DNA of 64,000 bases from Rhizobium sp. FKL33 (GTDB lineage: Bacteria > Pseudomonadota > Alphaproteobacteria > Rhizobiales > Rhizobiaceae): NCBI RefSeq assembly GCF_005222915.1, contig NZ_STFX01000028.1:1-64000 (forward strand). The letters are read 5' to 3'. The first letter of the stretch is position 1; each line of letters begins with the position of its first letter. Position numbers and translations under genes: made by a program. Positions 1-9,127 of the stretch are shown in pieces. Below the pieces are notes generated by a model. It was not told where the DNA came from, made no database searches, and saw only the letters and a list, made by a program, of their open reading frames with translations.

Positions 1-235
1 GGACTGCGCCGCCGCGATAGAAGCCGGCGCGATACATGACCTGCCAGTGGTCCTCGATCAGGAACGGATCCTTGCCGATCAGATAGTCGGCGAGTTCATG
101 CACGGCGGCCTCCACCGTCAGCGCCCGGCCCTCGACCACGGGCTCGCCCCAGCCGGTGACGCCCTCGTCCGTCTCGATCTTCAGGAAGCACCAGCGCGGC
201 GGGACGATATAGGTGGTCAGTTTGGTGATTTTCAT
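1..235 (-). CDS. dgoD: D-galactonate dehydratase, N-terminal part (cut by window edge)
   Basis: This is the first 78 codons of a mandelate racemase/enolase-superfamily enzyme; the rest lies outside the window. The protein opens [15 protein letters not shown] and continues with [16 protein letters not shown] and [14 protein letters not shown], then a [13 protein letters not shown] stretch. This matches the capping domain of DgoD, which dehydrates D-galactonate to 2-keto-3-deoxygalactonate in the De Ley-Doudoroff route. The catalytic barrel cannot be checked. A 16-bp perfect palindrome lies 32 bases upstream of the start and could be its operator. Another sugar-acid dehydratase of the same superfamily is the main alternative, but the N-terminus is very DgoD-like. 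Confidence 0.88.
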
Positions 236-2503: not shown

Positions 2504-3367
2504 ATGTCCAACACCCGCCGCCCCAAGCCGCCTCATCCCAAGCAGGAACAGTCGCCGCCCGGCACGACGCCGAACATGGATCCATTGCCGGATCACGGTG
2601 AAGAGAGTTACCGCGGAAATGGGCGACTTGAAGGCAAGGTCGCCCTGATCACCGGCGGCGATTCGGGCATCGGCCGCGCAGTCGCCATCGCCTTCGCCCG
2701 AGAAGGCGCCGATGTGGCCATCGCCTATCTCCAGGAACATCGCGACGCCGAGGACACCGCCCGGCTGATCGAAGAAGCAGGCTCCAAGGCGCTGACCATT
2801 CCCGGCGATCTTTCCGACGAGGGCCATTGCAACGGCGTCATCGAAAAAGTGGTCAACGAACTGGGCGGGCTCGATATTCTGGTCAATAACGCCGCCTTTC
2901 AGCGAACTTATGCCGACATCTCCGACATCACCGCGGAGGAGTGGGACACGACATTCCGCACCAATATCTATGCGCCCTTCTTCCTTTCCAAAGCGGCAGT
3001 CCCGCATATGAAGCCGGGATCGTCGATCATCAACACGACGTCGATCCAGTCCAAGCAGCCCTCCCCCCAACTGCTCGCCTATGCCTCGACAAAGGGCGCC
3101 ATCCTGAACTTTACCGCAGGCCTTTCCGCCATGATGGCGGATAGGGGCATACGGGTGAACGCGGTCGCGCAGGGACCGATCTGGACGCCGCTCATCCCGT
3201 CGACCATGCCGCAGGAGAAGGTCGAGAATTTTGGAAAGCAGACAGCGCTCGGACGTGCGGGACAGCCGGCCGAACTCGCCGGCGCCTATGTGCTGCTCGC
3301 CTCGGATCTCGGCAGCTACATGACCGGCGCCGTCATTCCGGTGACCGGCGGCGAGATCATGATCTGA
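2504..3367 (+). CDS. Short-chain dehydrogenase, stress-type (YghA/YhxC-like)
   Basis: A cytosolic NAD(P)-dependent oxidoreductase of 287 residues. A Pro-rich leader of about 40 residues, typical of the general-stress SDR subgroup, precedes the Rossmann fold. The cofactor loop is TGGDSGIGR (50-58), with NNA at 128-130 and catalytic S180, Y193 and K197 (YASTK). A C-terminal GAVIPVTGGE closes the fold. The start has AAGGAG 8 bases upstream. The substrate is unknown; homologues are annotated as general stress or glucose dehydrogenase-like. It leads a probable operon with the chimeric glgE/mak gene (28 bases downstream) and glgB. Confidence 0.85.
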   Translation: MSNTRRPKPPHPKQEQSPPGTTPNMDPLPDHGEESYRGNGRLEGKVALITGGDSGIGRAVAIAFAREGADVAIAYLQEHRDAEDTARLIEEAGSKALTIPGDLSDEGHCNGVIEKVVNELGGLDILVNNAAFQRTYADISDITAEEWDTTFRTNIYAPFFLSKAAVPHMKPGSSIINTTSIQSKQPSPQLLAYASTKGAILNFTAGLSAMMADRGIRVNAVAQGPIWTPLIPSTMPQEKVENFGKQTALGRAGQPAELAGAYVLLASDLGSYMTGAVIPVTGGEIMI

Positions 3368-3395
3368 CGTCCGCCACGATAGTTTGGACCCATCC

Positions 3396-6300
3396 ATGAC
3401 ACACGCGACTTCGACAACCGCCTTCCGTGAGGCGGCGGCCCCGCCGCGACTTTACTTCGTCCATCCCTTGGCGCTGAAGAGCGAAGATGAGTGGCGGCGC
3501 GCCTTCGCCCATGCCCGAGCTTTGGGTTTCGACAAAGTGCTTACGGCGCCGATTTTCGCCCGCCCGCCCGGCGGCAGCGTGTTTGTTCCAACAGATTGGG
3601 ACAGCGCGGAGCCGGAACTCGGGCTGGGCGCCGACGCGACGGCGGCGCTTGCACGTCTGTCCGCCGCTGCAGGCGAAGAGGGCGTCGGGTTGATGCTCGA
3701 CATCGTCGTCGATTTCGAACCGGATCCGCGCGGGACGACGCCGTTCGATCCCCGCATCGGGCCGCTGCGGCGAGGCGGGCGGCAGATCGAGGTGGTGGGA
3801 GACGAGGCGGCGGCGCACTGGAGCGAGAGGCTGTCGCGCTTCATCAATGCCGGGGTGTCCGGCTTCCGCTGCATGGGGCTTGCGCAGGCGCCGGCGGACT
3901 TCTGGCGCAGTGTAATCCACAGTTGCCGCGCGAACGCAGGCGAGGCGATCTTTCTCGCCTGGACGCCGGGCGCCGATTTCGAAGTTCGCCGCCGCCTGCG
4001 GGGGACAGGTTTCGACGGAAGCTTTTCATCCTTCGCCTGGTGGGACCTGGAGTCGCCATGGTTTGCCGAGGAATATGAATTGCAGCGCGATCTGGGCTGG
4101 CAAATCGCCTTTCCGGAAGCGCCCTACGGCAAACGGCTGGCGCATGGCGCCGAAAGCCGCGAGATCCTCGAACGCCAGGCGCTGCGCGCGCTGAAACTCG
4201 CCGACCAGATCGGCGACGGGCTGATGGTCCCCATGGGCTTCGAATATGGCGCGACGCAGCCCCTGGATCCGCTGTCCGGCAAAGGCGCGGATCTCTGGAG
4301 CGCAGAACGCGCCGCCTGCTTCAATCTGACGGGGCCTATCCGCGAACTCAATCGATCGGCCAACCAGGCGGCTCGGCAACCCAAAGGTACGCTTCAGTTC
4401 CTGGCCGCCTCTGGCACGCCATGCCTGACCCTGCTTCGCACCGATGGCGCTAGCTTCTCCGCCTCAGACCGGTTGACGGCGATCCTCGTCAATCGTGATC
4501 TCAGACGGGGCGCCTCGGCGCCATATAACGTCTTGAGAGAGGCTTCGTCGGGCTTTCTGCCGCTGAAGCCCGCCGGCGGTGACGGATCGGCGCTCAATGC
4601 GCTGGCGCGTCTCCGCCCTGGCGACATCAGGATCTATGTCGGCGAACGCGGCCAGCCAATCCGTAGCGCAGTCCCCGCCAACGGCGCGGAGGCGGCAGGC
4701 GAGGATTCCCGGCTGGCGATCGAGGCGGTTACCCCAAGCGTCGACGGCGGTCGTTTTCCGGTTAAGCGGATTGTCGGCTCCCTTGTCCATGTCGAGGCCG
4801 ATATTTTCGGAGATGGGCATGACCCCTTGTCCGCAGCGCTTCTGTGGCGCGCGGCAGACGACGCGGAATGGCGGGAAGCTCCGATGACGCTTCTGGTCAA
4901 CGACCGCTGGACGGCCGATTTCACCCCGCAACGTCTCGGCCGGCACGAATTCCTGATCGAGCCCTGGCGCAATCCGTTCGGCATCTATCGTTACGAATTG
5001 CAGAAGAAGCATGAGGCGCGGCTGGACCTGACGCTCGAACTACAGGAAGGCGCAGCGCTGATCCGGAAGGCTGAGGAACAGGCGGAAGATCCACTCAAAT
5101 CTCGCCTGCGCGCCTTCATCGAACGGCTCGCCCAAGCGGAAAGCAGCGAACGCGTGGCGTTGCTGCTTTCGGACAACGCCTTCCGACTGATGGCGGAGGC
5201 CGATGCGCGACCATTTCGAACCCGATCAGCCGTGATACCGCTCGACGCCGAACGTCGAGAAGCGGCCTTCGCCAGCTGGTACCAGATCTTCCCGCGTTCC
5301 CAAAGCGGCGATCCGCATCGGCACGGAACGTTCGACGACGTCATCAAGCGGCTGCCCGCGATCCGCGACATGGGCTTCGACGTCCTCTATCTTCCACCGA
5401 TCCATCCCATCGGCGCCACCAATCGCAAAGGCCGCAACAACTCCCTGGCTGCCGGACCCGACGATCCGGGCAGCGCCGAGCTCGTCGCCGCCACCGAAAT
5501 GCCCTTCTCCAACGACCTCGTCCTCACCGAACTGCGGGTTCAGTTGGAGGGGCATGCCGAGACCTATCTTCTGCCGCTGGCGGTGGCCTGGGATGACACC
5601 CAGCCACAAGCGCTGGCGCAACAATTGACGCTTGCCCGTGTTCGCCATGTTCGGCGCGTCGGTTTCCTGACCGACGGCTTCGCAGCGGAAGCGCCCGCGC
5701 GCAGCGTGATGCGAGGGCTGTGCGAGCGCTCGGCGATCTCGAGCAAGACAGGGTCGCTGGAATTTCTCGGCACAGAGGCGCTCGACTGCATGAGCCTCTC
5801 CGACGACATGCCGATCCGCTGGCTGTCGGCCGAGCAATCGAACAGTTCGCTGATCCTTGGCGACATGGCGATGATCAAGCTGATCCGCCATATCTTCCCG
5901 GGCATCCATCCCGAAGTGGAAATGACTCGACATCTCACCAAAGTCGGTTACGCCAACACGCCGCCGCTGCTCGGCGAAGTCGCCCGCATAGACGCCGAAG
6001 GAGAACGCTCTACGCTGATGATCGTCCAGGGCGCCATTCGCAATCAGGGCGACGCCTGGACCTGGATGCTGAACGAACTCCGCCATCGCCTTGAAGTCGT
6101 CATCGTCAACGCCTCTGGTGAGGAGGCGGCGAGCGAGGAAGAGCGCGATCCGTTCAACGGGCTGATCGAAGTGGCCGGCGTCGTCGGCAAGCGGCTGGGC
6201 GAATTGCACGCCGCCCTCGCTCTGCCAAGTGAAGATCCCGATTTCGCCCCCGCCACGGCCGGTGAGACCGAAGCGGAGACCTGGCGAAAGGCGCTCCAGA

Positions 6301-6923
6301 AGAAACTCGGCGACTGCCTCGATCTCTTGTCGGACGTCCGTCCCAATCTCGATCCAGCCTGCGCTCAGTATATCGATCCGCTGCTGGAGCAGCGCGCTCG
6401 ATTGCTTGACGCCGCCTCGGCCCTGTCACGCTCTCTGGTGGGGGCGATAGAAACACGGGTGCATGGCGATTTCCATCTCGGCCAGGCGCTCGTCGCCGAA
6501 GACGACGTCTACATCATCGATTTCGAGGGTGAGCCTGCGCGCGCGCTTTCGGATCGACGCGCCAAGACAAGTCCGCTTCGCGATGTCGCCGGCCTCCTGC
6601 GCTCGATCAGCTACCTCGCCGCGTCGGCGGGATCGGACCGGGATACGGCGGCGGAAACAAGCGACGATCATCGCGCCCAGCTGACCGAACGGTTCAAGCG
6701 CGAAGCAGAGACCGCGTTCCTCGAACGCTATGCCGCCGCGATCGAGAACAATGAAGCCTTGTCGATGACGCCCGAACGGCGCGCTCGGTTGATCGATCTC
6801 TTCCTGCTCGAAAAGGCGGCTTATGAAATCGGTTACGAGGCCCGCAACCGGACCGGCTGGCTGCCCATTCCGCTCAAGGGCTGTGCGACAATTGCCAACA
6901 GACTGATGGAGGCGCATCGATGA
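3396..6923 (+). CDS. In-frame chimera: GlgE N-terminal half fused to maltokinase of TreS-Mak
   Basis: One uninterrupted frame of 1175 residues. Residues about 10-420 form the extra glycosidase-like domain found at the N-terminus of rhizobial GlgE. Residues about 430-690 are the GlgE N-terminal domain and the first catalytic strand, up to [10 protein letters not shown] and RKGRNNS. At residue 690-695 the sequence switches abruptly to the cap of a maltokinase ([11 protein letters not shown]). It continues through HGDFHLGQ (1023-1030) and IDFEGEP (D1042) to a normal maltokinase C-terminus. The catalytic nucleophile and acid of GlgE, all of TreS and the first few residues of the Mak cap (the RQRWF region) are absent. 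Normally glgE and treS-mak are separate genes of over 1000 codons each. The kinase could still make maltose-1-phosphate; the GlgE activity must be lost. ATG at 3396 is preferred over TTG at 3384, though neither has a strong ribosome site. Confidence 0.85.
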
Positions 6924-9127
6924 CAGCGCAGCATCTACTCGGCGCAATCGATCCTCACGCGGTCGCGGCGCTCATGGACGGCCGCCATGGCGATCCCTTT
7001 TCGATCCTCGGCAAGCATAGGATCGGAGAGCAGACCGTGCTTCGCGCGCTGCTGCCCGGGGCGATGCGCGTCGACATTCTCGACGCAGACACCGGCGCGG
7101 AGATCGGCCAGGCCGAACTCGTCCATGCGGGCGGCTTGTTTGCCGGGCCGATCCAGCCGGTCAATCGCTATGTCATGCGCATTCACTGGCTCGACGCTGT
7201 GCAGGAAACCGAAGATCCCTATTCCTTCGGCCTGCTGCTCGGCGAACTCGACCTGCATCTTCTCGCCCAAGGCACCCATTACGATCTTGGACGCACCTTG
7301 GGCGCGACGGCCATGGCTGTCGATGGCGTTCCCGGCGTCCGCTTTGCGGTCTGGGCGCCGAATGCGCAGCGCGTCTCTGTGGTTGGCGATTTCAACAGTT
7401 GGGACGGACGACGTCATCCGATGCGGCTTCGCCGTGAAGCTGGCGTCTGGGAATTGTTTGTGCCGCGCCTTGGGCCCGGCGACCGCTACAAATACGAAAT
7501 CATCGCCCCCTCCGGCGAGGTGCTGCCGCAGAAAGCTGATCCCGTCGCTCGATCGAGCGAGGCCGCGCCCGCCACCGCCTCGATCGTCGTGTCCGGCAAC
7601 TCGTTCCCCTGGACCGACGAAGACTGGATGCGGCGCAAGCGCGAGCATCGCGACCTGAACGCGCCGATGTCGATCTACGAAGTGCATCTCGCCTCCTGGC
7701 TCAGGATCGCGGAGGAAGGCGGCCGCTCGCTCAACTGGATCGAACTCGCCCAACGGCTCATCCCCTATGTCCAGGACCTGGGCTTCACCCATGTCGAGCT
7801 CCTGCCGATCATGGAGCATCCGTTCGGCGGCTCCTGGGGCTATCAACCACTGGGGCTCTTTTCGCCGACCGGGCGACACGGAACGCCGGAGGACTTCGCG
7901 GTCTTCGTGGATCGGTGCCACGAGGCCGGCATCGGCGTGCTGCTCGACTGGGTGCCGGCGCATTTTCCGACCGACGTCTGGGGACTGGCGCGTTTCGACG
8001 GCACGGCGCTGTATGAGCATGAAGATCGGCGCGAAGGCTTCCACCGCGACTGGAACACGCTGATCTACAATCTCGGCCGCAACGAGGTGAAAGGCTTTCT
8101 GATCGCCTCGGCGCTCGAATGGCTGGACCGGTTCCATATCGACGGGCTGCGCGTCGACGCCGTCGCCTCGATGCTCTATCGGGATTACTCAAGAAACGTC
8201 GGCGAGTGGATTCCGAACAAGTATGGCGGACGGGAAAACCTGGAAGCCGTCGAATTCTTCAAGCATCTCAACAGCATCATCCGTCAACGCGCGCCGCACG
8301 CCCTGACCATCGCCGAGGAATCGACAGCCTGGCCGGGCGTCACGGCGCCGGTGGAACAGGGCGGGATCGGCTTCGACTTCAAATGGAACATGGGCTGGAT
8401 GCATGACACGCTGGATTTCATGGAAAAGGACCCGATCTATCGGGCCTATCACCTGGGGCAGATGACCTTCGGGATGGTCTATCAGTATACCGAGCATTTC
8501 GTGTTGCCTCTGTCGCATGACGAAGTGGTTCACGGCAAAGGCTCGCTCTATGGCAAGATGCCGGGCGACGACTGGCTGAAGCGGGCCAATCTTCGCGCCT
8601 ATTACGGGTTCATGTGGGCGCATCCCGGCATGAAGCTGTTGTTCATGGGGGGGGAACTCGGCCAGCGGACAGAATGGAACCACGACGCCTCGGTGCACTG
8701 GGATCTGCTCGACGATCCCGGTCACGCCGGACTGCAGCGGGTGATCAGCGATCTCAACCGTCTTTATGTACAGGAGCCGGCGTTGCAGTTCGGCGACCTC
8801 AACAGCCGGGGATTCGAATGGGCGACTGCGGATGACGCGCAGAATTCCGTCATCGCTATGCTGCGCTATTCGGAGGACCGAAAGGAAGCGATGCTGGCGG
8901 TGTCCAACTTCACACCGACGCCCAGATCCGGTTACCGCATCGGCGCGCCCTTTCCCGGACGCTGGACGGTGGTGTTCAACAGCGACGCCGAGATCTATGG
9001 CGGATCGAACCAGGGCATGCTCGAAGCCTGGACTGAAAGTGAACCGAGCCATGGTCGCGATGTCTCGATCGTGCTGACGCTTCCGCCGCTCGCAACGGTT
9101 TATCTCAAGGGGGTCCAAGAAAGGTGA
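6920..9127 (+). CDS. glgB: 1,4-alpha-glucan branching enzyme
   Basis: GlgB cuts alpha-1,4 chains of glycogen and rejoins them as alpha-1,6 branches. The 735 residues hold an extra N-terminal E-set domain (about 10-115), a CBM48 (about 130-225) with [10 protein letters not shown], and the GH13 barrel with DWVPAHFP (343-350), GLRVDA with nucleophile D413, IAEES with acid/base E466, and LSHDEVVHG. An all-beta C-terminal domain ends the protein. Its ATG overlaps the stop of the upstream chimera by 4 bases, so the two are translationally coupled. In intact rhizobial operons the order is glgE, treS-mak, glgB, so this gene marks the downstream edge of the deletion. Confidence 0.96.

Follow-up and report, generated by a model that had tools for sequence, protein, structure and literature searches.

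In-frame deletion relics, or chimeric pseudogenes, are a known category in bacterial operons, and the long rhizobial form of GlgE and the bifunctional TreS-maltokinase (TreS-Pep2) are the described proteins closest to the product of the locus presented here. Passages of PMC5042117 state that in mycobacteria the blocking of GlgE or GlgB leads to poisoning by maltose 1-phosphate, whereas the loss of TreS or Pep2 is tolerated, and that accumulation of maltose 1-phosphate kills M. tuberculosis and accompanies the poor growth of a glgE mutant of S. venezuelae; an excerpt of PMC8084333 reports an almost eight-fold rise in this compound upon deletion of glgE in P. aeruginosa. For the kinase, portions of PMC4306142 (Fraga et al. 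2015) describe a cap formed by the first 88 residues, with an invariant Trp14 that is cross-linked to the P-loop, together with the roles of the P-loop, AMLK, HGD, DFE and DVA motifs, and according to extracts of PMC6509496 the activity of M. smegmatis Pep2 is substantially reduced when 70 N-terminal residues are removed.

The window analysed here, 64,000 nucleotides of Rhizobium sp. FKL33, is the start of contig C24 in an assembly of 5.31 Mb and 60 contigs that is 98.2% complete, and all features described below lie on its forward strand. An intact treZ for malto-oligosyltrehalose trehalohydrolase (469-2247; NCBIfam TIGR02402, 697 bits against a cut-off of 539) is followed by a gene for an SDR-family oxidoreductase (2504-3367; Pfam PF13561, 211 bits), which holds the same position in both sister genomes, and then by a single frame of 1175 amino acids at 3396-6923. 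This frame is open without a stop from the ATG at 3396 (alternative start TTG at 3384) to the TGA at 6921-6923, and glgB (6920-9127; TIGR01515, 895 bits) overlaps it by 4 bases with its ATG at 6920. Residues 1-692 are GlgE and the remaining residues make up the kinase portion of a TreS-maltokinase. The GlgE portion begins with an extra N-terminal domain of the rhizobial form (residues 1-430, 3396-4685), delimited by internal similarity, a column check and the structure model, and continues with an intact GlgE N/S domain (residues 439-620, 4710-5255), matched by Pfam PF11896 over profile positions 2-179 of 179 with an E value of 4.1e-56. After this domain, an orphaned initial segment of the catalytic barrel (residues 621-692, 5256-5471) ends in RKGRNNS and GPDDPGS, is devoid of catalytic acids and accounts for the sole alpha-amylase match (PF00128), which covers residues 630-670 and the first 42 of 446 profile positions only. 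The deletion junction at 5472-5474 leads into a truncated remnant of the maltokinase cap (residues 693-765, 5472-5690), and the intermediate and C-terminal lobes of the kinase follow at 5691-6920, with the P-loop AEQSNSS retained at residue 812 and the motifs AMIK at 825, HGD at 1023, DFE at 1042 and DVA at 1063; the putative maltokinase profile TreS_Cterm (TIGR02457) covers residues 700-1166 with 492 bits against a cut-off of 375. A preliminary description of this DNA had read one frame running from GlgE through RKGRNNS into the kinase, a join around base 5470 and a 4-base overlap with glgB, and each of these points is borne out by the open frame, the domain matches and the position of the junction; its statement that the frame enters the maltokinase cap stands as regards the presence of the kinase part, but the first part of the cap is also gone. 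An Rfam search of the window returned no match. As a separate observation, C24 and contig C1 of one sister genome (G003) start at most about 70 bases apart, upstream of treZ (window 1-70).

What is missing from the frame is specified by the relatives. The residues D809, E838 and D896 of the sister GlgE, which we take from GH13 motifs to be the catalytic acids, fall within the missing stretch and are present in 22 of 23 aligned homologs, the one exception being a gap in a truncated row. The GLGE_C domain has gone as well, as have the complete catalytic domain of TreS and approximately 24 residues at the start of the maltokinase cap; Pfam reports no GLGE_C domain for the window protein, while the GlgE of G003 has PF21702, and the TreS GH13 domain (TIGR02456) goes unreported for the window protein in the NCBIfam profile search. 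By alignment to M. vanbaalenii Mak, the retained cap starts at about residue 24-25, so that the equivalent of the invariant Trp14 is lost, and both breakpoints fall inside domains. The chimera thus resembles the long rhizobial GlgE in its GlgE part (78% and 81% to the two sister proteins) and in its N/S domain, but its catalytic barrel is almost entirely gone, as are the three acids of the active site and the C-terminal domain; similarly, its residues 692-1175 are 86% and 90% like those of the bifunctional TreS-Mak of the sisters, with the kinase core kept, but the TreS domain and the first part of the cap subdomain are absent. With in-frame deletion relics it has in common the very short homology at the deletion, the occurrence in a single genome and the retained downstream overlap, whereas it differs in having no stop or frameshift so far, and it is not formally a pseudogene.

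Two genomes of the same genus, G003 (by its contig a match to Rhizobium sp. SG_E_25_P2) and G002 (a match to Rhizobium sp. G21), retain both glgE and treS-mak in the corresponding operon, and by blastn the window lacks 2995 bp against each of them, with offsets of -64 and +2931 for G003 and of -411 and +2584 for G002. In the comparison with G002, the match on the 5' side extends to base 5474 and that on the 3' side begins at base 5472, leaving the three nucleotides AGC common to both. Since glgE and treS of the sisters are in different frames and 2995 leaves a remainder of 1 on division by three, the deletion joins them in frame. The spacer between the GlgE part and the kinase part measures 2976-3074 nt in all 24 related loci counted, the lower value being that of G002, where the alignment enters a frame break and blastn gives 2995. 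This count comprises L037-L040 and L046-L065, leaving aside L044 and L045 (the same genomes as L037 and L038), L066-L068 (one part matched only) and further matches whose two parts sit at separate places. That glgE had lost its catalytic half together with treS by an in-frame deletion, as had been proposed, is upheld by the identical gap against two sisters and by the spacing of about 3 kb in these loci. A junction probe matches 93 of 394 family genomes, and among the matches listed only the window's own spans the junction; within the genus three of nine genomes match, the own one included, and the other two have intact spacing. A shared ancestral fusion was therefore rejected. The plasmid collection contains 710 matching records, none with a single place covering 80% of the query, and yielded no second copy of the deletion, and among the matches listed from open-licence PMC papers neither this event nor a loss of glgE in rhizobia was described.

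The comparison also brought up several features of glgE in the relatives. The extra N-terminal domain of about 430 residues (window 3396-4685; L037 3335-4609) resembles GlgE's own catalytic domain, with 27-35% identity over 160-182 residues in most comparisons, and since the nucleophile position is not Asp and the acid position is not Glu in any of the 23 aligned proteins (L040 has Asp at the acid position), it looks, by its sequence, like a conserved pseudo-GH13 domain. The operon of Rhizobium sp. G21 (L038) has frame breaks in treZ, glgE and glgB; the completeness of this genome is 86%, and the breaks look like sequencing error rather than gene decay. In L058 the GlgE frame stops 695 residues from the start of the match, against 1049-1096 in the other aligned homologs, and may be a second, independently broken glgE.

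The genome was also searched for the missing functions, as had been suggested. Used as a DNA query, the missing 3 kb found just two stretches in the genome, one of 218 nt with 72% identity and one of 42 nt with 83%, both within a gene of the NCBIfam BglA family, and no TreS rose above the profile cut-off, the best match (246 bits against 678) being a 551-residue frame on C10 that scores 990 bits against a cut-off of 900 as BglA. A second glgE or a full treS elsewhere in the genome was accordingly rejected at the sensitivity of these searches. TreZ and GlgB, which the preliminary description took to remain, are both matched by their profiles in the window; two GlgA are above cut-off in the genome, one of them adjoined on C35 by GlgC and a second GlgB, and these two, like OtsA on C9, TreY on C54 and GlgX on C10, also exceed their cut-offs. 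As the glgB-glgC-glgA cluster, TreY, TreZ and OtsA are retained, the genome can probably still make trehalose and glycogen. A second treZ-like gene on C10 (about 75208-75949; L043 4207-5949) appears broken: its back part is a frame of 435 amino acids corresponding to TreZ profile positions 159-543, and the front part is read in a different frame, which contains a TGA.

Taken as a whole, we consider it probable that a real and recent deletion of 2995 bp inactivated the GlgE pathway and left an in-frame chimeric relic. The event would probably have been an illegitimate recombination guided by a microhomology of about 3 bp, taking with it the catalytic domain of GlgE, that of TreS in its entirety and the beginning of the maltokinase cap, and the trehalose-to-alpha-glucan route would thereby have been closed. 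The remaining ends would have come to lie in frame by a one-in-three chance, allowing translation to continue into the overlapping glgB, and the chimera itself would most likely be a relic that lacks the activities of GlgE and TreS and phosphorylates maltose weakly or not at all. We suggest that the loss was tolerated because the glgB-glgC-glgA cluster, TreY, TreZ and OtsA remain and because the supply of maltose by TreS and the use of maltose 1-phosphate by GlgE went together.

An AlphaFold model of the chimera built on a 38-row alignment has a mean pLDDT of 76.8 and a pTM of 0.44. The N-terminal domain (block means mostly 70-97), the N/S domain and the kinase core are mostly well predicted, and in Foldseek the best solved structure is the maltokinase 4u94; the barrel stub and the cap remnant have a pLDDT below 50 at residues 620-647, 659-692, 699-709 and 727-763, block means are 38-60 across residues 691-770, and there are shorter low stretches in other places, including the P-loop (812-814). 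The low values of stub and remnant suggest that the join links two broken pieces and not whole domains, while those near the join may stem in part from a thin alignment there.

As to age, in a neutral frame of this kind one stop should arise for about every 0.01 substitutions per site, counting base changes only and no indels, and by about 0.03 substitutions per site the chance that it is still open has dropped to 5%. With the frame still open and an own-branch dS of about 0.46 in the kinase part, derived from pairwise values, the chimera, if dead, would be young, falling roughly in the last 7% of the branch. Its low pairwise dN/dS would then be inherited from the time before the deletion and would neither show nor exclude function. 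Unique changes in the own lineage against G002 number 28 and 14 in mak (p 0.044, one of six segments, uncorrected), 6 and 5 in glgE 435-660, 29 and 35 in glgE 1-423, 11 and 6 in the SDR gene, 41 and 68 in treZ and 21 and 41 in glgB, the G002 counts of the last two, like the conserved-site test for glgE 435-692, being possibly inflated by the frame breaks of that genome. In the kinase part, conserved sites have no surplus of changes (2 of 28 in the own lineage, 1 of 14 in G002, 2 of 33 in G003), and the own-lineage excess in the kinase sequence is too weak to prove relaxation. In glgB, highly conserved sites account for 7 of 19 own changes, compared with 2 of 29 in G003 (uncorrected p 0.02), which hints at a possible relaxation of the whole operon.

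The preliminary description had offered a collapsed assembly as one alternative, in which the 3 kb would be present in the organism and merely dropped from the assembly. The contig does begin at window base 1, only 3.4 kb from the chimeric frame, and the G003 contig begins at nearly the same place. A false assembly join usually needs a shared repeat, yet the longest exact word common to the 300-nt surroundings of the two breakpoints in the sisters is 9 nt (G003) or 10 nt (G002), with none at the join; a repeat-mediated collapse was rejected for want of a long repeat there, and the deletion was taken as real. With 3 nt common to the two sides of the junction in the comparison with G002, exact words of 9-10 nt at most within 150 nt on either side of the breakpoints, a clean join in frame and the missing piece on no other contig of a 98.2% complete assembly, we regard an assembly error as unlikely. 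The deletion might also be confined to this isolate or vary within the sequenced culture, without being fixed in the species, given that the comparison includes one genome of the species and that the event appears recent, but we hold this to be highly improbable.

The other alternative concerns function: the chimera could conceivably work as a protein in which the N-terminal and N/S domains of GlgE carry a maltokinase, and could make maltose 1-phosphate or act as a regulator. The fully open frame of 1175 residues, the retained kinase core motifs and the low dN/dS, which count against a relic, would also fit a protein under selection; the kinase core is mostly well predicted and nearest to solved maltokinases, and, in the part of PMC6509496 concerned, the Pep2 with the 70-residue truncation kept some activity. 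On the other side, the breakpoints lie within domains and leave stubs of low model confidence, the invariant cap Trp is lost, no dedicated maltose supply remains with TreS gone, no GlgE is left to consume maltose 1-phosphate, described as a toxic product elsewhere in passages of PMC5042117, and among the matches listed from 394 family genomes the junction is spanned in the own genome only. A working chimera is hence improbable to us, and the new regulatory or maltose-1-phosphate-producing protein put forward earlier is disfavoured by the cut domains, the missing Trp and the absent TreS; still more doubtful would be an active chimeric maltokinase kept by selection to make maltose 1-phosphate or to sense maltose without GlgE.

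For genome annotation, the recent deletion that we favour implies a warning, as pipelines may label the chimera GlgE or maltokinase despite its lost catalytic residues and the loss of part of its cap. For the organism, the locus has the look of a knock-out that arose naturally in the GlgE pathway, with the step that produces maltose and the one that uses maltose 1-phosphate lost jointly; with GlgE and TreS removed together the toxicity of maltose 1-phosphate would be avoided, and, given that this toxicity is known, such a joint loss of both steps would be favoured.
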